From a virus, in the IMG/VR virus record IMGVR_UViG_3300023174_002455, positions 1-25,055 of that record: a stretch of DNA of 25,055 nt; one strand, written 5' to 3'. This document shows, piece by piece, positions 2 to 23,634 of this stretch; positions within the stretch are counted from its first letter, which is position 1, and each line of letters starts with the position of its first letter. The position numbers and the translations under genes are program-made. Below the pieces are notes generated by a model, which was not told the origin of the DNA, searched no databases, and saw only the letters and a list, made by a program, of their open reading frames with translations.

Positions 2-127
2 GTAACAGTATTTCCTACTGCGTTTCCAAAAGCATATATGCATATTGAAGAAGGCAAGTCGTATAAATTTAGTTTTGGTAAAACCAAAGATGGCACGGTA
101 ATTATGGAGGATGTAAATGTCAGTTAA
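2..127 (+). CDS. C-terminal end of a replication protein, probably DNA polymerase III alpha-type (partial)
   Basis: An open frame enters from the left edge and ends with TAA at 125-127, giving 41 residues. The visible part reads like the final beta-strands of an OB-fold: a VTVFPTAF segment, then an IEEGKSYKFSFGK segment. The pattern 'VFP..F ... EGK.Y.F.G' resembles the C-terminal OB domain of bacterial DnaE-type polymerases. The frame overlaps the start of the RecA-like gene by 11 bases, as expected for translationally coupled replication genes. Only the tail is present, so the identity is tentative; another OB-fold replication protein would look similar. Confidence 0.45.
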   Translation, partial: VTVFPTAFPKAYMHIEEGKSYKFSFGKTKDGTVIMEDVNVS

Positions 128-1130
128 TATACAAGAGGTACTATCGCAGTTAGACCCAAGAATTAGAAAGCGTCTTGGAACAGGAGAAGGAATTACCTTT
201 GAGTATCAGCCAACTCCAAGTTTTGGTTTGAATCGTGCTCTAGGTGGTGGGTTACCATACGGAAGACAGGTCCTTATATGGGGCAGTAAGTCTTCTGCTA
301 AATCATCTATGTGCTTACAAATGATTGCTTTAGCACAAAAAGAAGGTAAGGTTTGTGCATGGATTGATTCTGAAATGTCTTACTCAGAAGATTGGGCAAA
401 GCAACTTGGTGTAGATCCAACAAAATTAATTTATTCACAAGCACGTACTATTAGCGATATGGTAGACGTTGGTGTTGGACTAATGAACGCTGGAGTTGAT
501 CTTATTGTAGTTGATTCAATTACCTCAATGCTTCCTGCTATATATTTTGAAAAAGATTCAGATGAAATGAAAGCACTTGAAAATACAAAACAAATTGGTG
601 CAGAGTCTAGAGACTTTAGCAATGCTTGGAAAATGCTTAACTACGCTAACAACAAAGTAAAACCTACATTGCTTGTTCTTATTTCACAATCAAGAAATAA
701 TATTAATGCAATGTACACAAGTCAACAACCTTCTGGCGGTCAGGCTACTAAGTTTTACTCATCTTGTGTGATTAAATTGTTTTCTTCTGAGTCAGAAAAT
801 CAAGCAATCAAAGGAAAGATTAAGATTGGGGACAAACTAATTGAAGAAAAAATTGGCAGAAAGATTCGTTGGGAGTTACAATTCTCTAAAACCTCTCCAG
901 GGTTCCAATCTGGTGAGTATGATTTTTATTTTAGAGGTGACAATATTGGTATTGATGCAATAGGAGATTTAGTTGATACCGCAGAATCTATGGGACTAGT
1001 TAATAGAACTGGCGCATGGTATCAGTTAGATGACGGAATAAAAATACAAGGTCGTGATGGTTTTATAGAACGTGTTAAAGAAGACTTAGCACTACAAGAA
1101 CAAATTAAGGCAAAAATAATTAATGCTTGA
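117..1130 (+). CDS. RecA/UvsX-like recombinase ATPase
   Basis: A 337-residue RecA-fold ATPase, expected to form filaments on single-stranded DNA and drive strand exchange during phage replication and repair. The Walker A region is GSKSSAKSS at residues 56-64, where the usual glycine before the lysine is alanine. Walker B is LIVVDSIT at 129-136, and an ISQSRNN segment near residue 190 fits the RecA L1-side QxR/N region. The length is close to bacterial RecA, although the C-terminal domain is divergent. GGAGG at 106-110 precedes the ATG. It lies just after a probable polymerase end and before a nuclease, a Cas4-like exonuclease and a RuvC-like resolvase, forming a recombination cluster. A DnaB/Sak4-type RecA-core protein is less likely given the full-length RecA-like layout. 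Confidence 0.85.
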   Translation: MSVNIQEVLSQLDPRIRKRLGTGEGITFEYQPTPSFGLNRALGGGLPYGRQVLIWGSKSSAKSSMCLQMIALAQKEGKVCAWIDSEMSYSEDWAKQLGVDPTKLIYSQARTISDMVDVGVGLMNAGVDLIVVDSITSMLPAIYFEKDSDEMKALENTKQIGAESRDFSNAWKMLNYANNKVKPTLLVLISQSRNNINAMYTSQQPSGGQATKFYSSCVIKLFSSESENQAIKGKIKIGDKLIEEKIGRKIRWELQFSKTSPGFQSGEYDFYFRGDNIGIDAIGDLVDTAESMGLVNRTGAWYQLDDGIKIQGRDGFIERVKEDLALQEQIKAKIINA

Positions 1131-1311
1131 GCAAAAGTTTACCGTATATCCTGGCAAGTGGCCATGTAAAACTTGTGAAGAAGTTGTTACATCTTTAAGA
1201 TATTGGAGAGAAACTGGGGATACAACATGGATGTGTACACAAAAACATATTTCAAGAGTTAGTCTATTACCTCCAACAAAGAAAGATTATGAGCGAAAAG
1301 AACGAAAGTAA
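1123..1311 (+). CDS. Small zinc-binding protein
   Basis: A 62-residue protein starting inside the end of the recA-like gene (8-base overlap). Residues C15 and C18 form a CxxC knuckle, and C38 with H42 could complete a CCCH zinc site. The C-terminus is very basic (KKDYERKERK). No named family is recognised. Its place between recombinase and nuclease genes suggests a nucleic-acid-associated accessory role, which is inference only. Confidence 0.65.
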   Translation: MLEQKFTVYPGKWPCKTCEEVVTSLRYWRETGDTTWMCTQKHISRVSLLPPTKKDYERKERK

Positions 1312-1588
1312 AAGAATGGGTGCTAAGCAGCATAAGAATTCTGGTAGAAATACACAGAAGGGTGATGCAACATGGCGTGAATTTGTTGTTGATTTTAAAG
1401 AAGTCAGCAAATCTTTTACATTGAACAAAGATGTATGGGCAAAGGCTGTTACTGATTCTATTCAAGCGGGTAGAGATAAATCTCCAGCCATTATTGTAAT
1501 TCTTGGAGAAGGTAACACAAAAGTAAGACTTGCTATAATTGAAATGAATATGCTAGAACAATTAACAGAGGAGGAATATAATGTCTGA
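1289..1588 (+). CDS. Putative Hjc-like Holliday junction resolvase (PD-(D/E)XK-type)
   Basis: A 99-residue protein with the layout of small phage junction resolvases. A basic glycine-rich N-terminus (GRNTQKGDATW, residues 19-29) is followed by a VDFKE core at 34-38, a KSFTL...W.K segment at 41-52, and PAIIVILGEG on the final strand at 66-75. The D-x-K of VDFK would be the metal-binding motif; the upstream acidic ligand is not obvious. It would cut branched DNA before packaging. The start at 1289 overlaps the previous gene by 23 bases; an in-frame ATG at 1316 is an alternative. A RuvC-like gene sits 1.5 kb downstream, so the two could overlap in role. The family call rests on pattern recognition. 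Confidence 0.5.
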   Translation: MSEKNESKRMGAKQHKNSGRNTQKGDATWREFVVDFKEVSKSFTLNKDVWAKAVTDSIQAGRDKSPAIIVILGEGNTKVRLAIIEMNMLEQLTEEEYNV

Positions 1589-1895
1589 AACAGGACCACA
1601 GAAAACAACACTTGATATGGTAAATGGTTTAACAGAGATTGCAGACTATATGCAAGACGAAGAGTTGACCGTTGCACTAACTATGATTGCAAAGATTATC
1701 ATAAAGCCAGATATTCCCCTTCAGGCTGCTAGTCTTGAAATTGTGAGACTACAAGCCATTGCAGCAAAGATGTCCTTTAAAGCCACTTGGATGGCCAATG
1801 TTGACAAATCCGACAGGGCAAAGAAAAACATATACTTTACAGCAGCACAAGCAATAAACGATTTGGTATCAGCGCTTAAATACATAATGCGCTAA
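1581..1895 (+). CDS. Small helical phage protein of unknown function
   Basis: A 104-residue protein predicted to be almost entirely alpha-helical, with heptad-like stretches such as LTVALTMIAKIII and AINDLVSALKYIM. It has a strong ribosome site (GAGGAGG at 1567-1573) and overlaps the upstream nuclease gene by 8 bases. No catalytic motif, cysteine pair or membrane segment is visible. The neighbourhood suggests a recombination or replication accessory role, but I do not recognise the family. Confidence 0.7.
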   Translation: MSETGPQKTTLDMVNGLTEIADYMQDEELTVALTMIAKIIIKPDIPLQAASLEIVRLQAIAAKMSFKATWMANVDKSDRAKKNIYFTAAQAINDLVSALKYIMR

Positions 1896-1897
1896 CC

Positions 1898-1906
1898 TGC
1901 TATAAT
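1898..1906 (+). promoter_or_regulatory. Extended -10 promoter upstream of the Cas4-like gene
   Basis: TG at 1898-1899, C, then TATAAT at 1901-1906 forms an extended -10 box. No good -35 is visible. The predicted start near 1913 leaves a 15-base leader containing AAAGG before the ATG at 1928. It sits in one of the few gaps between genes in this part of the window. Confidence 0.55.
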
Positions 1907-1927
1907 TAATATAAACAAAGGACAAAA

Positions 1928-2788
1928 ATGGCTAAAAATTTATTAGAACAAGTTATGACTAAAAGCACTAAAAAGAAAGTAACAAACAGCGAAGAAGATG
2001 AAAACTTTGTTGAAGGTTTGCCAACTGCTATAAATGCTGGCTATCTTGTTAAAACAAAAACAAGGTTTGTTAAAAAGAATAATTTTTCTGCATCTAGTTT
2101 GGCCTATGGCGCAGGTGAGTGTCCAAGGTATTGGACTCTAGCATTTGATGGACAAATTACTTACGATAACTCAGATGCCATGGGCGTAGCAAACAGAACA
2201 CAAGGAACTCTTGGACATGGAAGAATACAAGAGGCAATAGAGGCTTCTGGTTTACTTGCACAAGATATGGAGTTTGATCCAATACCAAGAAAATATAGTC
2301 AACAAACTCATCCAGCAATGGAGTTTAGAGTTAAAACTGATGATCCACCTTTTGACGGGTATGGAGATGTCATGATTGACTACAAGGGTGAAAGACTTGT
2401 TGGTGAAATTAAAACAATAAAAAATGAAGAGTTTGAATACAGGAAAATAAATAGACGACCTAAGATGGCTCATCTAATGCAGTTATTGTTGTATATGAAG
2501 GTTTGGAAAATGCGTAAAGGTGTTATGATTTACGAAAATAAAAACACTCACGAATTACTTACTTTGCCAGTTGTATTAAGTGAACGCTATCGTGCTTGGG
2601 CAGAAGAAGTTTTTGAATGGATGAAATTGGTTTACAAGAATTGGCAAGAAAAACAATTGCCAGAAATTCCTTATCGTTCAAATTCAAAAATTTGTAAAGT
2701 ATGTCCTATTCAAAAAGCATGTGCTGAAGCAGGAGATGGAACAATTAAGATTAAACCTATGAGATTGTTAAAAGACGAAGTGGATTAA
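1928..2788 (+). CDS. Cas4/RecB-like PD-(D/E)XK exonuclease with Fe-S cluster cysteines
   Basis: A 286-residue nuclease. The core shows H98 in a GHGRIQ segment, D147 in GYGDVMID, E160-I-K162 in GEIKT, and a QLLLYM helix at 185-190. These are the ordered motifs of RecB/Cas4/AddB-type nucleases. Four cysteines, C65 near the N-terminus and C256, C259 and C265 near the C-terminus (CKVCP...C), fit the split arrangement that holds a 4Fe-4S cluster in Cas4 and AddB. It probably trims DNA ends to feed the RecA-like recombinase encoded upstream. No cas1 or repeat array is visible, so a CRISPR role is not implied. The promoter at about 1900 suggests it begins a new transcript. Confidence 0.85.
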   Translation: MAKNLLEQVMTKSTKKKVTNSEEDENFVEGLPTAINAGYLVKTKTRFVKKNNFSASSLAYGAGECPRYWTLAFDGQITYDNSDAMGVANRTQGTLGHGRIQEAIEASGLLAQDMEFDPIPRKYSQQTHPAMEFRVKTDDPPFDGYGDVMIDYKGERLVGEIKTIKNEEFEYRKINRRPKMAHLMQLLLYMKVWKMRKGVMIYENKNTHELLTLPVVLSERYRAWAEEVFEWMKLVYKNWQEKQLPEIPYRSNSKICKVCPIQKACAEAGDGTIKIKPMRLLKDEVD

Positions 2789-2793
2789 TCAAT

Positions 2794-3084
2794 GTGAAAC
2801 TATGTGAAAGATGCGAGACCCCATTTAAACCAAAAGTAAGTTATCAAATTTATTGTGGAGATGTTTGTAGAGAAGAATCCACCAAAATAAAGATAGCCGA
2901 AAGATATCAAATAACTCGTAGACAAAAAAGAATAGGTAAAAAAAGACTTTGTATTGGCGGTTGTAAAGAACAACTTTCAATATATAATGACTCTGGCTTT
3001 TGCCCTAACTGCAATATAAATAAAAAAGAAGTAGACAAAATGTTAAAACAACTAAAGGGATTTTTTGACTATGAACAAGAATAA
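2794..3084 (+). CDS. Double zinc-knuckle small protein
   Basis: A 96-residue protein starting with GTG six bases after the nuclease stop. It has two cysteine sets: C4-x2-C7 with C21-x3-C25, and C53-x3-C57 with C70-x2-C73, so two zinc sites separated by a very basic linker (residues 31-52). The first half resembles the CxxC...YC...C motif of phage proteins related to the HNH/treble-clef class, but no HNH catalytic histidine is evident. Basic and zinc-bearing, it probably binds nucleic acid; the function is unknown. Confidence 0.65.
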   Translation: MKLCERCETPFKPKVSYQIYCGDVCREESTKIKIAERYQITRRQKRIGKKRLCIGGCKEQLSIYNDSGFCPNCNINKKEVDKMLKQLKGFFDYEQE

Positions 3085-3643
3085 TCCAAAAACAATTTGC
3101 GCTATTGATGCAAGCACTACAAGTCTTGCCTTTGCATTATTTAACAATAAAAAACTTACCACAGTTGGAAAAATAAAATTTGAAGGAAATACAAACTATC
3201 AAAAAGTAATGGATGCATGTGCAAAAACAAAAGCATTTTTTGAATACTCTGGCGGTTTTGAAGCAATTGTAATAGAGCACACAGTTTTTATGAATAGTCC
3301 AAAAACTGCTGCAGATCTTGCACTTGTTCAAGGAGCATTACTGGGAGCAGCAGGCTTAACTGGAACAAAACAAATAGGAACAGTAGCACCAATTACTTGG
3401 CAAAATTATTTAGGAAATAAAAGATTAACAAAAGAAGAACAAATAAATATTAGGGCAAAAAATCCAGGCAAGTCAGACTCTTGGTATAAATCTTATGAAA
3501 GACAGATTAGAAAAGAAAGGACTATTAAGTTAATTGAAATCAACTACGATAAAAGTATTAACGATAATGACGTTGCTGATGCTTGTGGTATCGGCCATTG
3601 GGCTATTAATAACTGGAATAAAGCAATGAGAGTGGAGGAATAA
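3071..3643 (+). CDS. RuvC-like Holliday junction resolvase (RNase H fold)
   Basis: A 190-residue RNase-H-fold nuclease. Acidic residues sit where RuvC-type enzymes carry them: D13 on the first strand (CAIDASTTS), E69 on the fourth (IVIEHTV), and D167/D170 in the C-terminal helix motif NDNDVADACGIGHWA. It would resolve four-way junctions formed by the RecA-like protein and debranch DNA before packaging. I chose ATG 3071 over TTG 3065 because AAGGGA at 3055-3060 is better spaced from it; 3065 remains possible. An unusual basic insert around residues 115-150 separates the third and fourth acidic motifs. Confidence 0.8.
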   Translation: MNKNNPKTICAIDASTTSLAFALFNNKKLTTVGKIKFEGNTNYQKVMDACAKTKAFFEYSGGFEAIVIEHTVFMNSPKTAADLALVQGALLGAAGLTGTKQIGTVAPITWQNYLGNKRLTKEEQINIRAKNPGKSDSWYKSYERQIRKERTIKLIEINYDKSINDNDVADACGIGHWAINNWNKAMRVEE

Positions 3644-4287
3644 TGCCAGAGTTAAACGCTAACATACCACCAATTGAGTGTTATGTACGTGGTAATTTTT
3701 TAAGAGATCAAGAAGATAGTCATGACAAATATTTTCCATGTGTAATTTTTGGTGTGTCTAGTATTAAAAGTAGAAGCCCTTTATTTCATTTCTTAATGGA
3801 AGATGGAGGAATTTGGTGGAGAATGCCAATCAATGCATTCTGCACAAAGCCAGGAGTTCCTGAAGAGCCAATCTACAACCTTGTGCTTTGGAACTCTTTT
3901 AGTCCACACATAGCAGTTACAAAATTTGAAAACTTAAGTAACATGAGAATGTCTTACATAGACAGAAATAAAAATAATATTGGTGGAAAATATTTATTTA
4001 CTTTGGATTGGCATAATCCAGAAAGTAACATTCTGGATGATGGATATTCAGAAAGTCCAGGGCAACACAAATGTGGTCATGTTATTCAAAGAGATGATGG
4101 AAATTTTGCGGTACAGCCTAATAACCGTATTAGATTAAAAGAACCATCATTCGTAACCAAGAAAGATCTAGTAATACAAAGACTTATAAATACAAATAAG
4201 TGGGATGTTGAAAGTTACGATAAATGGGTTTTAGAAGACTCAAATGCGTATGACTATGATATTTCTGAGACAGAAGTTGACAAATAA
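3643..4287 (+). CDS. Conserved-looking phage protein of unknown function
   Basis: A 214-residue protein with a strong ribosome site (GTGGAGGA) and a TAATG overlap with the resolvase gene. It is rich in aromatic residues, with strands such as PCVIFGVSS, LFHFLMEDGGIWWRMP and NLVLWNSFS, suggesting a soluble beta-rich fold. The acidic C-terminus (DSNAYDYDISETEVDK) may be flexible. No catalytic signature or family is recognised. Its location in the replication-recombination block is the only functional hint. Confidence 0.75.
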   Translation: MPELNANIPPIECYVRGNFLRDQEDSHDKYFPCVIFGVSSIKSRSPLFHFLMEDGGIWWRMPINAFCTKPGVPEEPIYNLVLWNSFSPHIAVTKFENLSNMRMSYIDRNKNNIGGKYLFTLDWHNPESNILDDGYSESPGQHKCGHVIQRDDGNFAVQPNNRIRLKEPSFVTKKDLVIQRLINTNKWDVESYDKWVLEDSNAYDYDISETEVDK

Positions 4288-4291
4288 TACT

Positions 4292-4447
4292 ATGGCTGCT
4301 AAACTATATACAAGCGAGGCTTGGCTCCGTAAAAGGTTTGTTATGGACAAAAAGTCTCCACAAGATATTGCCAAGGAGTGCGGGACTAGTGTTGAAACTA
4401 TCTATGTATACCTTGCAAAATTTGGATTTAGGAAATCAAAACGATGA
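4292..4447 (+). CDS. Small helix-turn-helix protein
   Basis: A 51-residue protein. Residues 22-46 read as a resolvase-like or sigma-region-4-like helix-turn-helix (SPQDIAKECGTSVETIYVYL), and the termini are basic. I chose ATG 4292 because it follows the upstream stop by four bases; an in-frame ATG at 4244 would add 16 residues overlapping the previous gene. No clear ribosome site is seen, so translation may be coupled. It could be a small regulator or a DNA-binding adaptor. Confidence 0.65.
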   Translation: MAAKLYTSEAWLRKRFVMDKKSPQDIAKECGTSVETIYVYLAKFGFRKSKR

Positions 4448-5196
4448 TACCTAAAATTATTTGGCAAACACATAAAGAAGAATATGAAAAATTACCAAAA
4501 TACATAATAGAATGTATTGATACTTGGAAAACAATAAATCCAACATTTGAATATAGATATTTTGATGATAAGGATATGGATAGTTTTATATTAAAATATT
4601 TTGGAAAAGAATGGTTAGAAATTTTAAACAACTGCCCTATTAAAATTATGAAAGTTGATACTTGGAAGTATATGATTTTATACGTGTATGGTGGTGTTTA
4701 TATTGACATTGACTATATTTGTAGTTTGCGAATAGAAGAATGGCTAGATGAAAATAATAACTTGGTTATTTTTCAAGACGATAGGTTTCCAGAATTTACT
4801 CAAGCAATATTTGCTTCAGAACCTAAAAATATTATTTTAGAAGAAGTATTAAGATTAACTAAAAATGATTTATTAAAAATAAATTACAAAAAAGAAATTA
4901 TTAATGTTGGAAGATTAACAGGGTATAAACAATTTAGTATAGCAATAGACAATGTTTTACAATTAAAAAATAAAGAAAGGGCTGGGCTTATTAGTAATTA
5001 TGAAGATTTTAATAATTTAGATATTGTTAAAAATATGAAAATACATACTCCATATTTTAAAAAATGGGATAGATTTAATAAAAAAAATCCATTATTTTAT
5101 TCAGTTCATGGAAGACTATCATGGGAAAATAACTATGGCAATTGGTTAGAATTACAAGAAGAAAAAAACAATAACTTAAGGAAAAATAATGTCTAA
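4444..5196 (+). CDS. GT32-type glycosyltransferase (DXD, capsular-polysaccharide type)
   Basis: A 250-residue protein with the hallmarks of the GT32 (Och1/capsule-type) family. The N-terminal strand is IPKIIWQTH (residues 2-10), then CIDTWKTINP, then the core KVDTWKYMILYVYGG leading to the DXD motif D88-I-D90 in YIDIDY. The enzyme would move a sugar from a nucleotide sugar to an unknown acceptor using a metal ion. Length is typical. It starts in an ATGA overlap with the HTH gene and ends 8 bases into the next gene, so it is embedded in the early operon. The DNA looks more A-rich and the protein richer in Lys/Asn/Ile than its neighbours, which suggests acquisition. The target could be host surface glycan, a virion protein or modified DNA. 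Confidence 0.85.
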   Translation: MIPKIIWQTHKEEYEKLPKYIIECIDTWKTINPTFEYRYFDDKDMDSFILKYFGKEWLEILNNCPIKIMKVDTWKYMILYVYGGVYIDIDYICSLRIEEWLDENNNLVIFQDDRFPEFTQAIFASEPKNIILEEVLRLTKNDLLKINYKKEIINVGRLTGYKQFSIAIDNVLQLKNKERAGLISNYEDFNNLDIVKNMKIHTPYFKKWDRFNKKNPLFYSVHGRLSWENNYGNWLELQEEKNNNLRKNNV

Positions 5197-5527
5197 ATTA
5201 ACTGCAGTATATAAAGATGTTAAAGATTTTAAATGTGACGATCTCTATCTTCAATCAATTGGGGCGCCATCGGGCAACTTAATTTGGCAAACATGTCATT
5301 CTATAGCCCAAATGCTTATACAAAAAAACATAGCATATGGCGATTCTGCATTTGATCCTGTAAGAATTTTTAGCAAGTCTGATCCAGCAGAACAACTTAA
5401 AGTTAGAATTGATGACAAACTAAGTCGTCTTATGAAAGGCACAGACTATCCTGGAGACAACGATATTGACGATCTAATAGGATATTTAGTTTTGTTAAAA
5501 ATAGCAAAGGAAAAAAATGTCAACTGA
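5189..5527 (+). CDS. MazG-like/all-alpha NTP pyrophosphohydrolase-type phage protein
   Basis: A 112-residue protein with the pattern KNIAYGDSAFDPVRIF (residues 46-61), RIDDKLSRL (near 73-81) and DIDDLIGYLVLLKIA near the C-terminus. This order of a K-x-AYG motif, a conserved R.DDK helix and a D..DLIGY helix is seen in small phage proteins related to MazG-like nucleotide pyrophosphohydrolases. It may hydrolyse or monitor nucleotides, but the acidic metal-binding set is incomplete by eye. AAGGA precedes the start, and it lies immediately before the terminase genes. Confidence 0.55.
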   Translation: MSKLTAVYKDVKDFKCDDLYLQSIGAPSGNLIWQTCHSIAQMLIQKNIAYGDSAFDPVRIFSKSDPAEQLKVRIDDKLSRLMKGTDYPGDNDIDDLIGYLVLLKIAKEKNVN

Positions 5528-6053
5528 AACAGAACTAATTGAGCATCTTGATGAAGTTAACAAAGTAGTTACAGAATATCTTAAAGGCCAAGATCCAACA
5601 AAAATTTCTAAAGAATTAGATATTCCTCGTACTCGTGTTGTTTCGTTAATCAATGAGTGGAAGGTTATGGCATCTGCAAATGATGCAATTCGTGCTCGTG
5701 CTAAAGAAGCACTTGCTGGAGCAGATACGCACTATACTAAACTTATTACAAAGGCTTATGAAGTAATTGATGAATCAAGCATGACTAATAATCTTAGTGC
5801 AAAGACTCAAGCGATTAAGTTGGTAATGGATATTGAGAAATCTAGAATTGAAATGTTACAAAAAGCAGGACTCCTAGAAAATAAAGAACTTGCAGAAGAG
5901 ATGGTTGAAATTGAAAGACGACAAGAAGTTCTTGTTGAAATCTTAAGAGACATTGCCTCAACCCATCCAGAGGTTCGTGATTTAATTATGAGACGTCTTT
6001 CTCAGATTGCTAAAGAAGGAGAGGTAATCACAATTGTCCAAGATGTTCAATGA
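5517..6053 (+). CDS. Probable terminase small subunit
   Basis: A 178-residue protein directly before and overlapping the large terminase gene by 20 bases. Its N-terminal 50 residues contain a helix-turn-helix (YLKGQDPTKISKELDIPRTR, near 17-36) that would recognise the packaging site. The rest is helical with charged heptads (residues 95-150), suited to oligomer formation. Known small subunits combine an HTH with a coiled-coil oligomer region, which fits. The assignment is by position and architecture rather than a specific motif. Confidence 0.65.
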   Translation: MSTETELIEHLDEVNKVVTEYLKGQDPTKISKELDIPRTRVVSLINEWKVMASANDAIRARAKEALAGADTHYTKLITKAYEVIDESSMTNNLSAKTQAIKLVMDIEKSRIEMLQKAGLLENKELAEEMVEIERRQEVLVEILRDIASTHPEVRDLIMRRLSQIAKEGEVITIVQDVQ

Positions 6054-7818
6054 TTTTTTAGAAGTTTTAAAAGAAAATCAATTTGATGAAATTCCAGTAG
6101 ACGCAAAAACATTTGTTGAGTCTGCGGATTATCTTGGCCAGCCAGAATTATCTTTAATTCAATATGAAATTGTAGAAGCAATGAGTCAAATTTATCGTAA
6201 AGAAGAACTACAAGAAATATTTGGATCTGTTGCTGGTGCTCAATATTTTGATAAATACACTAAAAATGAAATTATTTTACAACTTGGAAAAGGATCTGGA
6301 AAAGACTTTGTATCAACAGTAGCCTGTGCATATATAGTTTATAAACTCTTATGCCTTAAAGATCCTGCTAGGTATTATGGAAAACCAAGCGGGGATGCAA
6401 TTGATATCATCAACGTAGCCATTAACGCACAACAAGCAAAGAACGTATTCTTTAAAGGATTTAAAACTAAGATAGAAAAATCACCATGGTTTGCAGGAAA
6501 ATATAATGCAAAGGCTGATAGTGTTGAATTTGATAAATCAATCACAGTTTACTCTGGACACTCAGAAAGAGAATCGCATGAAGGTTTAAACTTATTACTT
6601 GCAGTTCTTGATGAAATTTCTGGTTTTGCATCTGAAGTTGGAACTGGCAATGAGCAAGGTAAAACTGCAGAAAATATCTATAAAGCATTTCGTGGATCTG
6701 TAGACTCTCGTTTTCCAGATTTAGGTAAAGTAGTATTGCTTTCATTCCCTCGTTACCCAGGCGACTTTATTTCTAAAAGATATGAAGATGTTATTGCAGA
6801 AAAAGAAACTATTGAAAAGAAACATCTCTTTATTATGAATGAAGACCTGCCACATAATGACCCAAACAATCAATTTGAAATTTCATGGGAAGAAGATACA
6901 ATACTTTCTTATAAAGTTCCAAAGGTTTTAGCACTTAAAAAACCAACTTGGGAAGTAAACCCTACTAGAAAAATAGATGATTTTAAATTAGCATTTTACA
7001 CAGACCTTGGAGATGCCATGATGCGCTTTGCATGCACACCAACATTTGCATCAGATGCATTTTTTAAACAAAAAGATAAATTAGAAAAGTGTATGACATT
7101 AAGAAACCCAGTTGATAACTTTAGAAGGTTTGACGAATCATTTAAACCTGATCCAGAAAAAATATATTATATTCATGCTGACCTTGCACAGAAGCATGAC
7201 AAGTGTGCTGTAGCAATTGCTCACGTAGATAAGTGGGTAAATATTCAGGTTATCAAAGATTATCAACAGGTAGCGCCAATGGTTATTGTTGATGCAGTTG
7301 CTTGGTGGGAACCAAAAGCAGAAGGTCCAGTTAATTTATCAGAAGTAAAACAGTGGATCATTAATTTACGCAGACAAGGCTTTAACATTGGAGTTGTTTC
7401 ATTTGACCGTTGGCAGTCATTTGATATTCAGCAAGAATTAAAAGCGGTAGGCATAAAGACCGACACCGTATCTGTTGCTAAAAAACATTATGAAGACTTG
7501 GCAATGATGGTATATGAAGAGAGAGTTGCAATACCAAGAATTCCTTTGTTACTGGAAGAAATGTCAGAACTTAAAATTATGAAAAATACTAGAGTTGACC
7601 ATCCACGTAAAAAATCTAAGGACCTGGCAGATGCTGTATGTGGCGCTGTTTTTGGAGCAATATCACATACGCCTAAAGATTCTAACCATGAGATTGAGAT
7701 TCATACTTGGTCTACCTCTACACGACTTGCAGAGAAGCAGAAGGCTATGGTAGAATTAGACAACAGGGAAATGCCTAATGATGTTAGAGATTTTCTTGAC
7801 AGATTAAATATAATATAA
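6034..7818 (+). CDS. terL: Terminase large subunit (packaging ATPase-nuclease)
   Basis: A 594-residue packaging motor. The ATPase half has Walker A GKGSGKD at residues 85-91 and Walker B LLLAVLDE ending in D193-E194. The C-terminal RNase-H-like nuclease shows D383 in YIHADLAQKHDK, D458 in VVSFDRW and D530/D533 in SKDLADAV. It cuts concatemeric DNA and pumps it into the prohead. I chose the TTG at 6034 because AAGGAGAGG at 6016-6024 is nine bases upstream; ATG 6043 is the alternative. This gene is the firmest evidence that the window is a tailed phage genome. Confidence 0.95.
   Translation: MSKMFNDFLEVLKENQFDEIPVDAKTFVESADYLGQPELSLIQYEIVEAMSQIYRKEELQEIFGSVAGAQYFDKYTKNEIILQLGKGSGKDFVSTVACAYIVYKLLCLKDPARYYGKPSGDAIDIINVAINAQQAKNVFFKGFKTKIEKSPWFAGKYNAKADSVEFDKSITVYSGHSERESHEGLNLLLAVLDEISGFASEVGTGNEQGKTAENIYKAFRGSVDSRFPDLGKVVLLSFPRYPGDFISKRYEDVIAEKETIEKKHLFIMNEDLPHNDPNNQFEISWEEDTILSYKVPKVLALKKPTWEVNPTRKIDDFKLAFYTDLGDAMMRFACTPTFASDAFFKQKDKLEKCMTLRNPVDNFRRFDESFKPDPEKIYYIHADLAQKHDKCAVAIAHVDKWVNIQVIKDYQQVAPMVIVDAVAWWEPKAEGPVNLSEVKQWIINLRRQGFNIGVVSFDRWQSFDIQQELKAVGIKTDTVSVAKKHYEDLAMMVYEERVAIPRIPLLLEEMSELKIMKNTRVDHPRKKSKDLADAVCGAVFGAISHTPKDSNHEIEIHTWSTSTRLAEKQKAMVELDNREMPNDVRDFLDRLNII
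7809..7814 (+). promoter_or_regulatory. Possible -10 box before the S-layer-like gene
   Basis: TATAAT at 7809-7814 lies at the end of the terminase gene, with a predicted start near 7821 and AAGGAG at 7825-7830 before the ATG at 7835. A TTGACA at 7796-7801 is only seven bases away, so it is not a matched -35. An independent promoter here is plausible but unproven. Confidence 0.35.
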
Positions 7819-7834
7819 ACTAACAAGGAGAATA

Positions 7835-9451
7835 ATGAATTCATTTAAAAAAATCGCTTTAGTTATGGCTGCAGCCGTGACAAGCACATTTTTTGTTGCA
7901 ATTCCACAGGCTCAAGCAGCGGTAACTAACGGATATGTATTATCCGATTCGTTGGCTGCAGGTGCTCGTGGTGTAACAGTATTAGCAGACACAACCAAAG
8001 CAGAGGCTGGAGTTAATGCTGTAGTCGTATTAACCACTAGTGATACTTTGGCTGCAACAGCAGACGATAACGTAACGTTAGAAGTTGCTGGTCCTGCATC
8101 ATTTACTGACTACACAGCAGCAGGATCAAACCCTACAGGGGTTACGCTTACTAGTTTAGGTAAGTTATTTACATTTACAGCAACCACAACCGCAGCAGTA
8201 AACTTACCAACAAACGTTAAGTTAACTGTTAATGGTGCAGGCACTGTAACTGTAACTCAAAAGAAGAAGGTTGGAGCAACCACTTCTACAATTGATATTA
8301 AAACAATTTATGCAGGAACAACTGCAAAGACAAATGTTTTGTCTGTAGCAGATTCTTATGTTCGTGTACAAGATACATCAACAGCAGGAACTCTAACATC
8401 TAGCGTAGATGTTGCTACTGCAACTAGTGTTACAAATACTGGCACAGGATATATTAATGTTCGTGCAATGGATGCTTATGCAGCACAACTATCAACTAGT
8501 GGTGTAATTCAAGCAAGCGCAACTGGTGGTGCGGTAGTAGCATGGGATGGTGCTCCAAGCACACAAGTTAATGCAGCAGCCAAAACTGGTACTGCTGGAG
8601 TTTTATATGTAGTTCAAGGAACTGCAAATGAAAACAAGCCAGTAAATACAACAGTTACAATTACATTTAATGGCACAGTTCTTGCAACAAAGACCATTAC
8701 ATTTACAGGTCGTGCAGCATCTATTCTAGTAACTGGAGTAGACATTGCACAATCTAACGGAGCACGTACAGGAACCTATGACTTTGTAGTCAAGGATTCT
8801 GCTGGTAATCAGTTGGCTAGTATTACTCCAAGTGCTGATGCAACCAAGTACACATCTCAAGTAACATCTGTTTCTGTAGGTGGGGCATCATCTGCTACTG
8901 CCGTACAAACAGGTGGTTGGACATGTGCTTCAACATCAGGTTCAGCAACAGTACGTCTTTCATATACCCACACAGATGCAACAGTTATTTATTCAAATGA
9001 CTTTATTGCAGCATGTGCTAGCGGTGTAAATAAGTACACAGCAACTCTTGATAAAAAAGAGTACAAGGCTGGAGAAATTGCAACACTTACAATCTCAGCA
9101 ACAGATATTAATGGTGCTAAGGTTTACGGAGCAGCAACTCTAGGCGCTGGTGTAGTAATTTCAGGTGGACAGTTAACAGCAGTTTCTGCTGCAACTTCTG
9201 CAGATGCATTTGATGCCAATGGATCAAGATTAATTAAATTTACAGTAGGTAATACTGCTGGATCATATAATTTAATTGTAGATCTACCAGCATACGTAGC
9301 AACTGATTCAGCAAAGGTAGTTTCTTACTCCGTTGTTGACTCTTCAGGCTCAGTATCTAATGCTCAAATTTTGCAATCAATCGTTGCACTTATTGCAACA
9401 ATTAACAAGCAAATTGCAGCACTACAGAAATTGATTCTCGCAAAGAGATAA
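7835..9451 (+). CDS. Exported S-layer-like surface protein
   Basis: A 538-residue protein with a clear Sec signal peptide: basic NSFKK, a hydrophobic core, and a likely cleavage after residue 28 (AQA-A). The mature part is rich in Ala, Thr, Val and Ser and reads as serial beta-sandwich or Ig-like domains. The C-terminal 35 residues form a compact amphipathic helix (ILQSIVALIATINKQIAAL followed by a short basic tail), a style of ending I associate with S-layer-like proteins of aquatic actinobacteria; that link is from memory. It has an AAGGAG ribosome site and a strong terminator downstream. A virion role is possible, but the signal peptide argues for export across the host membrane, perhaps to alter the cell surface or block superinfection. 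Confidence 0.75.
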   Translation: MNSFKKIALVMAAAVTSTFFVAIPQAQAAVTNGYVLSDSLAAGARGVTVLADTTKAEAGVNAVVVLTTSDTLAATADDNVTLEVAGPASFTDYTAAGSNPTGVTLTSLGKLFTFTATTTAAVNLPTNVKLTVNGAGTVTVTQKKKVGATTSTIDIKTIYAGTTAKTNVLSVADSYVRVQDTSTAGTLTSSVDVATATSVTNTGTGYINVRAMDAYAAQLSTSGVIQASATGGAVVAWDGAPSTQVNAAAKTGTAGVLYVVQGTANENKPVNTTVTITFNGTVLATKTITFTGRAASILVTGVDIAQSNGARTGTYDFVVKDSAGNQLASITPSADATKYTSQVTSVSVGGASSATAVQTGGWTCASTSGSATVRLSYTHTDATVIYSNDFIAACASGVNKYTATLDKKEYKAGEIATLTISATDINGAKVYGAATLGAGVVISGGQLTAVSAATSADAFDANGSRLIKFTVGNTAGSYNLIVDLPAYVATDSAKVVSYSVVDSSGSVSNAQILQSIVALIATINKQIAALQKLILAKR

Positions 9452-9466
9452 TTTCTTAATAAAATT

Positions 9467-9499
9467 AGAGGGTAGATTAATTTCTACCCTCTTTTTTAT
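9467..9499 (+). terminator. Rho-independent terminator after the S-layer-like gene
   Basis: GAGGGTAGA (9468-9476) pairs perfectly with TCTACCCTC (9483-9491) around a 6-base loop, flanked by an extra A-T pair and followed by T6 at 9492-9497. It lies 16 bases after the stop at 9451. This is the clearest intrinsic terminator in the window and separates the two long exported-protein genes. Confidence 0.9.
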
Positions 9500-14226: not shown

Positions 14227-15001
14227 TAATTTTGATTATTGGAGTCACATTCAAGATTTTTCTGAAAATTTTAATTCTAAATCATTTTCAGTAGGTCATA
14301 ACATAAATTATGAAAAAAATTTATTAGGGTTTCGTTGTGATGAATTTATAACAACTCATAAAGGCAAGCATCTGCTTTTTTCTGGATGCTCTCATACATA
14401 TGGAGTTGGTTTAAAAAAAGAAGAAGTTTGGGCTTATAAAGTTTATGATAAAATAAGTAAAATAAATAGTTGTTCTGGATATTTCAACATTGCAGAAGGA
14501 GGAAATAATATATCAAATTCTATTTTAAATATATTTAAATATTGTAAACAATTTGGCAATCCAGATTTAATATTTATTAACTTACCAAGTCACTCAAGAT
14601 TTTTTAATTATAAAAAAGATGAATCTTCCTATCGCCTAATAAATTATAAAGAATTTGATGATATGTACTATATTATAAAATTAATAAATTATAATTATTA
14701 TTTTATGCTTGAACAATATTGTAACACTAACAAAATAAAATTATTTTCATTTAGTTGGGACGTTGATAAAAACAGAACACCATTTTTTGAAACAACAAAT
14801 AATCTTTTTAATGAGTATAAATTTAAAACTTTTCATTTTATTGATGAATCAATTTTATTTGACAATTTGTTTTCTTTAAAACAAAAATATGATAATGAAT
14901 TTTTTGATAAAGCAAGAGATGGACAACACCGAGGCACTGGGACGCACATGTTTTGGTCAGATTTTATTTATAATAAATATTTAGAAAGTTTTAACAAATG
15001 A
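14216..15001 (+). CDS. SGNH/GDSL-hydrolase-like protein
   Basis: A 261-residue protein with ordered SGNH-type blocks. Block I is LLFSGCSHTYGVG, with the likely nucleophile S59. GGNN at 95-98 resembles the block III glycine-asparagine turn. INLPSHSRF follows the hydrolase core strand, and D235-x-x-H238 in ARDGQHRGTG fits the C-terminal catalytic Asp-x-x-His. Such enzymes remove or transfer acyl groups on sugars and lipids. The DNA is far more AT-rich than its flanks and the protein is rich in Asn, Lys, Phe and Tyr, pointing to foreign origin. The stop overlaps the carbamoyltransferase start (ATGA), so the two probably act on the same substrate. Confidence 0.65.
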   Translation: MYTNNFDYWSHIQDFSENFNSKSFSVGHNINYEKNLLGFRCDEFITTHKGKHLLFSGCSHTYGVGLKKEEVWAYKVYDKISKINSCSGYFNIAEGGNNISNSILNIFKYCKQFGNPDLIFINLPSHSRFFNYKKDESSYRLINYKEFDDMYYIIKLINYNYYFMLEQYCNTNKIKLFSFSWDVDKNRTPFFETTNNLFNEYKFKTFHFIDESILFDNLFSLKQKYDNEFFDKARDGQHRGTGTHMFWSDFIYNKYLESFNK

Positions 15002-16422
15002 TAATTCTTGGTATAAACGAAACATCTCATGATGCGTCAGTGTCATTACTTGAAAATGATAAAATTTTATTTGCAGGGCATGCAGAAAGATATAGCAAAC
15101 AAAAAAATGACTGGTATATCAATGATAGTTTAGTAAAAGATGCTTTGCAGTATGGCACACCAGATTACATTGCCTACTATGAAAAGCCTCTCCTAAAGGC
15201 CTCCAGACTGGCTTTAAGGGGTGGATCTGGAGAATGGAAACCAAGGTTTGATCTTCCTGGCATTCCAAGAAAATCTTTTAGTCATCACTATTCTCACGCA
15301 GCAGCAGGATACTATACTAGCAAATTTAATGATGCTGTTGTTGTAGTACTAGATGCAATTGGAGAATACAATACTTCTACAATCTGGACAGGTGAAGGTA
15401 ATAAAATTAAATTAAAATATAAAAAAAATTATCCAGTAAGTTTTGGATTATTTTATTCAGCCTTTACGCAGTTAATTGGACTTATGCCAAACCAAGAAGA
15501 ATATATTATGATGGGTATGGCAGCATACGGCGACTGGACAAAACACTATAAAAAAGTTAACGAATATTTCCCTTCACATAATATTCAAAAATATAATTTT
15601 CATAAAGGAATTGCCGACTGGGGATGGATTAATTCTGAGCAAGATAAATTTGATATTGCAGCAGCAGTACAAGTAGTATATGAGCAAAGGCTTAATGATT
15701 TTATGCGTATGGCAAAAATAATTACTGGTAAAGATAATCTTGTTTTTATGGGTGGATGTGCTTTAAATTCTTCTGCAAACACCTTATTATGGAATATATT
15801 TGATAATGTTTGGATTATGCCAAACCCTGGAGATGCTGGAAGTTCTTTGGGAGCAGCAGCAGCACTATATGGCAAACATTTAAAATGGAAAGATCCATAC
15901 CTTGGCTATGATCTTGGAGGAAAGTATCCTGTTCAGCAAATTGTTGACGGTATATTAAAAGATGGAATTGTAGCAGTAGCAACAGGAAGAGCAGAGTATG
16001 GACCAAGAGCACTAGGAAATAGAAGTATTCTTGCGGATCCAAGAGATCCAGAGGTAAAAAATAAAGTTAATTTAATTAAACAAAGAGAGTTGTTTAGACC
16101 TTTTGCACCAGTAGTTATGGCAGAGCATGCATCAGAATGGTTTGATATGAATTTTGAAAGTCCATATATGCAATATACAGTAAAATGTTTAAAACCAGAA
16201 AAAATACCGTCCGTTGTTCATGCTGACGGAACATCTAGAGTTCAAACTGTAAGTAAAAGTCAGCATTTAGGGCTGTGGACTGTTCTTGAAAAGTTTTATA
16301 AGATAACTGGAGTACCAGTTTTACTTAATACTAGTTTAAACATTAAAAGGCAACCTTTGTTTAACGATGAGAATGATATTTATTTATGGGAAAAATATTA
16401 TAATAACAAGATTATTAGATAG
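14998..16422 (+). CDS. O-carbamoyltransferase of the NodU/CmcH/TobZ family
   Basis: A 474-residue enzyme that would transfer a carbamoyl group from carbamoyl phosphate via carbamoyl-AMP. The N-terminal Kae1-like half has ILGINETSHDASVSLL (3-18), the metal-site region SHHYSHAAAGYY (95-106), VVVVLDAIGE (115-123) and MGGCALNSSANT. The C-terminal half has RAEYGPRALGNRSILADPR, LFRPFAPVVM and VPVLLNTSLN. It is shorter than the usual 550-600 residues and the last 20 residues diverge after LNIKRQP, so the C-terminal tail may be eroded. Known members carbamoylate Nod factors, antibiotics and, in some phages, hydroxymethylated cytosine. No cytosine hydroxymethylase is seen here, so the substrate is open: surface sugar or DNA base. 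Confidence 0.88.
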   Translation: MIILGINETSHDASVSLLENDKILFAGHAERYSKQKNDWYINDSLVKDALQYGTPDYIAYYEKPLLKASRLALRGGSGEWKPRFDLPGIPRKSFSHHYSHAAAGYYTSKFNDAVVVVLDAIGEYNTSTIWTGEGNKIKLKYKKNYPVSFGLFYSAFTQLIGLMPNQEEYIMMGMAAYGDWTKHYKKVNEYFPSHNIQKYNFHKGIADWGWINSEQDKFDIAAAVQVVYEQRLNDFMRMAKIITGKDNLVFMGGCALNSSANTLLWNIFDNVWIMPNPGDAGSSLGAAAALYGKHLKWKDPYLGYDLGGKYPVQQIVDGILKDGIVAVATGRAEYGPRALGNRSILADPRDPEVKNKVNLIKQRELFRPFAPVVMAEHASEWFDMNFESPYMQYTVKCLKPEKIPSVVHADGTSRVQTVSKSQHLGLWTVLEKFYKITGVPVLLNTSLNIKRQPLFNDENDIYLWEKYYNNKIIR

Positions 16423-22905: not shown

Positions 22906-23634
22906 ATGAAAAATAAACTACCAAATAATTTAAATTTAATTTCTATTTCTGGGTGTGGTCATTCTGGAACTACACTAACAGCAACTGTTTTAGGTGCACA
23001 CAAAAACTTATTATTAATTCCAACTGAAACAAGGATGTTCCTTGACGAATCATACGATATTAATAATTTTATTTTTAATAACTATTCAGATAAAGAAACT
23101 ATGGTCATAGAAAAAACTCCAAACCATCTATATGTTTTAGATAAAATAAAAAAAGAATATCCAGATACTAAGTTTATATTAAATATAAGAGACCCAAGAG
23201 ACATAGTCTCATCACTTTATAGCAGGTTTGAAGATTGGAATAAGTCAATTGATAGGCTTAAAAAAGACTTTGAATATGTAAAAAAGTTTTATTTATTTGG
23301 ACATTTAGTTAAATATGAAGACATTGTTAATAACTTTGAAGATACCTTTATTGATATTTGTAAATATATAAAAATAGATTTTGATGAAAATATGTTAGAG
23401 TATTATAAATATGCTCCAAATTGGTACGGAGTAGAAAATCCAAAAGATAGTGATGGAAAAGACAAAGTATATAAAAATAATATTAGTAATCACGAAATAA
23501 GACGATCTTGGCAAGTAAAGCAACCGCTTTTTGACGGTACTGGTAGATGGAAAAAAGAACTAAGCAGTAGTCAGATAGACGATGTAGTAAAAAATATTGG
23601 AGAAATGGCCAACTTCTTTGGGTATACTATATAA
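22906..23634 (+). CDS. PAPS-dependent sulfotransferase-like protein
   Basis: A 242-residue protein with the two PAPS-binding signatures of sulfotransferases. The 5'-phosphosulfate loop is SISGCGHSGTTLTATVLG (13-30), and the 3'-phosphate motif is NIRDPRDIVSSLYSRF (93-108), with R95 and S103 placed as expected. An EKTPNH segment (69-74) fits the substrate-side region of the family. It would move sulfate from PAPS to a hydroxyl or amine on a sugar, lipid or protein. The next gene looks able to make PAPS. The DNA is A-rich and the protein Lys/Asn/Ile-rich, like the other cargo genes. The start follows the whiB stop by three bases without a clear ribosome site. Confidence 0.85.
   Translation: MKNKLPNNLNLISISGCGHSGTTLTATVLGAHKNLLLIPTETRMFLDESYDINNFIFNNYSDKETMVIEKTPNHLYVLDKIKKEYPDTKFILNIRDPRDIVSSLYSRFEDWNKSIDRLKKDFEYVKKFYLFGHLVKYEDIVNNFEDTFIDICKYIKIDFDENMLEYYKYAPNWYGVENPKDSDGKDKVYKNNISNHEIRRSWQVKQPLFDGTGRWKKELSSSQIDDVVKNIGEMANFFGYTI

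Follow-up and report, generated by a model that had tools for sequence, protein, structure and literature searches.

A gene directly behind the terminase gene of a freshwater phage encodes, in our reading, a homologue of the main S-layer-like protein on the surface of Nanopelagicales, which is exported and re-coats the infected cell, likely masking its receptors; we hold this reading, taken as a whole, at about even confidence. The gene lies at 7835..9451 (+ strand) of the window, by which we mean the whole 25,055-nt stretch of DNA that was analysed (IMG/VR record IMGVR_UViG_3300023174_002455, positions 1 to 25,055). The Nanopelagicales, actinobacteria that are probably the hosts of this phage, belong to the most abundant bacteria of fresh water, and little is known about phage recognition and competition in this group. 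The finding names their likely main surface antigen and shows that phages of a large clade carry homologues of that antigen and trade them, which may serve as a marker for phage-host matching.

The tie of a phage S-layer-like protein (SLP) to a Nanopelagicales host locus appears to be new, as do the universality of a slot for it behind terL in this phage clade and the exchange of alleles at that slot. What is already known is one annotation of a putative S-layer protein in a marine methylophage (PMC9004378) and the sheath-like proteins of archaeal viruses (PMC11576556). In the literature searched, with subscription papers and preprints outside the search, we found no S-layer or coat proteins in Nanopelagicales phages.

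The gene behind the terminase and its product

The SLP ORF (type A allele; 538 aa, ATG start, with relatives and host homologues) begins 16 nt 3′ of the gene for the terminase large subunit (TerL; 6034..7818, + strand; PHROG terminase matches), which is the upstream flank of the slot; the first-pass annotation had likewise placed it directly after the terminase. The start codon is preceded by a strong ribosome-binding site, AAGGAG (7825..7830, + strand), and most relatives keep this site in an alignment of the upstream regions. We observed a dN/dS of ∼0.21 among the type-A relatives, that is, purifying selection across the full protein length, and relatives of SLP are encoded at at least 113 IMG/VR loci. 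Therefore, the ORF is a real gene rather than a chance reading frame. The terminator of its own that had been assigned to the gene was found at 9467..9492 (+ strand) as an intrinsic terminator with a 10-bp stem and a T-run; a hairpin and T-run were present 3′ of the SLP gene in 97 of the 108 loci, with compensated changes in the stem. Sigma-70-like promoters around the gene showed no excess over chance expectation, and therefore we claim no promoter for SLP.

Residues 1-28 (7835..7918, + strand) form a Sec-type leader, MNSFKKIALVMAAAVTSTFFVAIPQAQA/A (the slash marks the predicted cleavage point), having K5K6 in the n-region, a hydrophobic core with a mean Kyte-Doolittle value of 2.1 and an AxA site. 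The Sec signal peptide noticed in the first pass is thus present by its sequence features, and the AxA-type site is kept in all of the 115 slot proteins; cleavage of the leader is probable from these features. The leader, MNSFKK..., is common to every phage body type and differs from that of the host SLPs (MSTKT...), and no SLP gene with a host-type leader was found among the viral contigs. The mature part (residues 30-538) is rich in Ala, Thr and Val as had been noted (16% T, 16% A and 12% V), a composition that resembles that of the host SLPs. Searches of Pfam, PHROG, NCBIfam and PDB sequences with the window protein gave no match.

We modelled the protein by AlphaFold2 using 20 relatives; the mean pLDDT was 63, and the part N-terminal to residue 166 had low confidence. 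The confident part of the model consists of three Ig-like beta-sandwich domains (residues ∼166-292, 293-396 and 397-503; 8330..9343, + strand; compared by Foldseek and VIA-align), which agrees with the beta domains proposed before, and these are followed by a C-terminal helix (residues 509-537; 9359..9445, + strand). The claim of a compact amphipathic helix at the C-terminus was borne out in part: the helix was recovered, and its amphipathic character is weakly suggested by a hydrophobic moment of 0.29 against 0.17 in shuffles, 9% of which were equally high. The type-B allele, modelled separately, has the same plan, beta domains and then a C-terminal helix (490-563). The solved structures with a fold like that of SLP are strings of Ig domains, namely FdeC, invasin, intimin and the S-layer proteins Sap and SbsC. 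Against the SLP model, Sap and SbsC scored Z ∼9, and intimin, invasin, FdeC and filamin scored equal or higher. The modelled Ig-string fold fits a surface protein without pointing to S-layers in particular. In Pfam and NCBIfam, SLP matched none of the curated domains for S-layers or cell-wall anchoring (SLH, CWB2 or SlpA-type).

The tails are partly independent of the bodies. Other phages have other tails instead of the helix, among them a host-type 'TITCVKGK...CPxGYKKK' tail, which some type-A proteins carry. This tail terminates secreted proteins throughout Nanopelagicaceae (206 stretches); could it be an undescribed sorting or anchoring tail? Among the phage SLPs, the form TITCVKGKxTKKVTxVxPxCPxGYKKK was observed in those of L015 (8001-9689), L093, L125, L137 and L153.

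Homologues at a surface locus of Nanopelagicales

Our first searches for host homologues, with the single window protein against genome contigs and with a profile against 12 host genomes, were empty. An order-wide profile search did find homologues, and therefore we ascribe the earlier blanks to low sensitivity and coverage. The search covered 296 genomes of Nanopelagicales, the order to which Ca. Planktophila lacus belongs. The phage type-B profile matched 71 of them (best E 3e-117), and Ca. Planktophila lacus and two IMCC isolates were among these; the phage type-A profile matched four (E 1e-29 to 1e-41); such rarity of strong type-A matches among the sequenced hosts (4 of 296) counts against our main reading. 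When 296 genomes sampled across the entire phylum were searched with the type-B profile, the only match was in the Ca. Planktophila lacus reference genome.

The window protein is homologous to the host SLP over nearly its full length. In local BLAST, it matched a host SLP with an E value of 1e-39, compared with 0.003 for the best of 200 shuffled queries. Matches to a host SLP were obtained for 109 of the 115 slot proteins, the main ones with 32-42% identity. The last 32 residues, which include the C-terminal helix, are 65-72% identical between the phage type-A proteins and the host SLPs, the same range as between hosts. The first-pass annotation had taken the protein for a host-style, S-layer-like one and had pointed to its C-terminus in particular; strong Nanopelagicales homologues at a conserved surface-glycan locus, with relatives down to the last ∼32 residues, agree with this. 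Of the outcomes that it had named as refuting, a lack of kin among host surface proteins was thus not what we observed. A recent host-to-phage transfer was rejected on the 32-42% identity, type A being no closer between phage and host than between host and host.

The host SLP gene resides in a locus with the order ECF sigma, SLP, Wzy_C O-antigen ligase, Ugd (UDP-glucose dehydrogenase-like) and epimerase, where the gene names beyond sigma and Wzy_C were assigned by inspection. Type A and type B host alleles occupy this one chromosomal locus, which is only partly visible in the type-A host G064, at a contig edge. The phage copy sits behind terL and not between the ECF sigma gene and the O-antigen ligase; therefore, it is a phage-borne homologue and not a host orthologue. 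The host SLPs (Ca. Planktophila lacus NZ_CP016769.1, ∼89.1-91.0 kb; G138:C1, ∼101.9-103.6 kb) are homologous over the mature phage protein and, like it, have a beta region and then a helix-like C-terminal tail, with similar composition, tail types and high codon adaptation. Apart from its position and the limited identity, the phage SLP differs from them in its leader, its own terminator and its exchange between phages. In the tree, phage type A is nested inside the host type-A clade (100/86) and type D is nested elsewhere among the hosts, and therefore at least two transitions are needed.

Type-C alleles match another host secreted protein, which is smaller and lies outside the S-layer-like locus (two host genomes), and therefore the term 'S-layer' may not fit all the alleles. 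These host homologues of the type-C slot protein are at L297:5615-6646 and L298:1-925. Host and phage proteins tested against Pfam and NCBIfam gave no confident match. The host SLP presumably forms an S-layer lattice.

We measured codon adaptation (CAI) against ribosomal-operon codons for the host, and also against capsid-protein codons for the phage. In two host genomes, SLP reached 0.736 and 0.735, where the ribosomal medians were 0.70 and 0.69, and was above every sampled background gene; in a third it stood at the 85th percentile only, a further point against our main reading. Among the window genes, SLP ranked first by host ribosomal codons. In a 91.6-kb relative (G297), it was second of 63 genes by capsid-protein codons and third by host ribosomal codons, after the major capsid protein and the putative major tail protein. 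Codon usage of this kind suggests high expression of the phage SLP.

A slot with exchanged alleles

The usual gene order at the phage loci is recA, exonuclease, ruvC, terS, terL, SLP, P869, holin region and endolysin. We surveyed the slot in 68 further related phage contigs with TerL, rather than SLP, as the query, which is less biased, and observed that the complete genes of at least 250 aa behind TerL were secreted proteins with the leader MNSF/LKK in 47 of 47 cases. The slot proteins have four body types, A (that of the window; 74 proteins), B (26), C (16) and D (2), and one fragment was left unassigned. Phage genomes carry one SLP each, and in some phages the gene has been relocated, for example next to tRNA-Asn in L037 and L051. 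There, tRNA-Asn(GTT) is immediately 5′ of the relocated gene (L037:7862-7935 and L051:2121-2194), a possible insertion point.

Deposited phages had no SLP relatives in the type-A and type-B searches. By TerL, the nearest deposited phages are Streptomyces phages of Stanwilliamsviridae, such as Yaboi (NC_048730.1), with 54% identity. They share with the window a syntenic block of recA, exonuclease, ruvC and terL (window 117-7818; NC_048730.1 62415-71001), but have an HNH endonuclease and tRNAs after terL, without SLP. From the TerL identity and the synteny up to terL, we conclude that the window belongs to a freshwater relative of Stanwilliamsviridae that carries the slot.

Next to the near constancy of the slot, its content varies independently of TerL. 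The identities of TerL and SLP were uncorrelated over 90 loci (r=0.07; 4005 non-independent pairs), and therefore we regard it as a fixed slot with swapped alleles. The window and L003 share 79% identity in TerL and 97% in SLP, and L014 and L181 share 98% in TerL and 23% in SLP. At the DNA level, the identity between L014 and L181 was 93% at the TerL end, 80% in the first 15 codons, 43% in the body and 85% in the terminator, and that between the window and L003 was 72% at the TerL end and 96% in the body. The identity jumps at the leader and at the terminator, which argues that whole mature alleles are exchanged between the conserved leader and terminator. The alleles traded between near-identical phages differ strongly (23-50% identity). 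This cassette nature of the slot was absent from the first-pass annotation.

Possible roles of the phage protein

We propose that SLP would be made late and at a very high level and exported via Sec. Its C-terminal helix or tail would then attach it to the same cell-surface partner that the host protein uses, and SLP would be incorporated into the host coat or laid over it, covering the infected cell. The altered coat would hide or replace the surface recognised by incoming phages, and the infected cell and its debris would stop adsorbing sibling and rival virions (superinfection exclusion). Receptor masking, superinfection block and S-layer replacement, the functions offered in the first pass, are all compatible with the evidence. 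We prefer receptor masking as the best explanation for the trade in such divergent alleles among phages that are nearly identical. A further step, which is possible but which we hold tentatively, is that the slot is a coat-switching slot of lytic phages, where whole mature alleles of the major host surface protein are traded and the infected cell is re-dressed in a coat that differs from its own and becomes invisible to competitors. If true, coat switching would be antigenic variation carried by a virus.

Related systems are known. S-layer proteins are phage receptors in Clostridioides difficile (PMC10100898, PMC12680318), and CwpV of this bacterium is a cell-surface protein acting in superinfection exclusion (PMC4737114, PMC6127314); CwpV is a phase-variable host gene product that blocks DNA injection, whereas SLP is phage-encoded. 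In the available part of the report on Methylophage Melnitz, Gene_23 is annotated as an S-layer-type protein and the authors postulate protection from superinfection (PMC9004378). Melnitz, a lytic marine phage of a streamlined aquatic bacterium, resembles our phage in having a putative S-layer protein, a likeness by description; what that part of the report gives is an annotation in one phage, with no counterpart at a host locus, no conserved slot and no exchange of alleles (PMC9004378).

Whether phages change the host coat is a testable question, and so is the purpose, which could be the exclusion of rivals, a weaker wall or the survival of the cell. A role in egress, where phage subunits co-assemble with those of the host and the lattice of the coat is weakened so that lysis completes, is a real rival to masking with some points in its favour, and we consider it unlikely. 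The slot is just 5′ of P869, a putative holin region and a CHAP endolysin, and the conserved tail would permit co-assembly. There is a proposed precedent in the sheath-like (SH) proteins of archaeal viruses, which are secreted, are related to a surface-layer protein of the host and occur in many virus genomes (PMC11576556). However, SLP is not a truncated poison but a full-length protein with purifying selection along all of it, the type C alleles match another host protein, and L037-like and L059-like phages have the SLP gene apart from the lysis genes. SH proteins are amyloid-type proteins of 150-350 aa from archaea, whereas SLP, at 538 aa with a string of Ig-like beta sandwiches in place of an amyloid core, comes from bacterial phages with a swapping slot and falls outside the SH definition. 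As far as can be judged from sequence, the evidence seems compatible with both masking and co-assembly.

Coat maintenance, with the phage supplying subunits after host shut-off and the cell kept intact against osmotic stress, grazers and lytic enzymes until lysis, is likewise a real rival, which we consider slightly less likely than egress. The codon adaptation, at the level of capsid proteins, is as expected for a many-copy coat, and the architecture and composition are those of the host protein, but maintenance alone does not explain why near-identical phages so rapidly exchange alleles of only 23-50% identity.

The first-pass annotation had offered, as its alternative, a head or tail decoration of the virion taken from the host. 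The very high codon adaptation, next to that of the major capsid protein, and the frequency of Ig-like domains on phage particles speak for this. Phage particles assemble in the cytoplasm, yet the Sec leader is conserved across all alleles. In the 91.6-kb relative, the structural module (portal, protease, capsid and minor tail) spans 23.8-44.2 kb and SLP is at 63.8 kb, ∼20 kb away and past the replication genes, and some phages have the SLP gene at other loci. Because of the Sec leader and the gene position, we disfavour a virion role as highly improbable.

That SLP is simply an Ala/Thr-rich secreted phage protein without true kinship to the host proteins we regard as next to impossible: A, T, V, S and G abound in the phage and host proteins alike, and a fold made of Ig strings has matches in many proteins without kinship, but the E values reach far below those of the shuffles, the tail identity is high, and the host matches fall in one syntenic locus and not in the wider phylum, a synteny which, with the shuffles also against it, refutes a composition artefact for types A and B.

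P869 (9554..12163, + strand), the usual downstream flank of the slot, is by its sequence features a secreted coiled-coil protein with about ten IPTD repeats, acidic helical repeats and a C-terminal hydrophobic stretch followed by RRRRN. A search for a host relative of P869 gave only low-complexity and weak local matches. P869 remains near TerL in the L037-like phages whose SLP has moved. By eye, we also noted glycosyltransferase-, carbamoyltransferase- and sulfotransferase-like genes at 4444-5196, 14998-16422 and 22906-23634 of the window, respectively, which possibly give this phage additional means of modifying surfaces or DNA.
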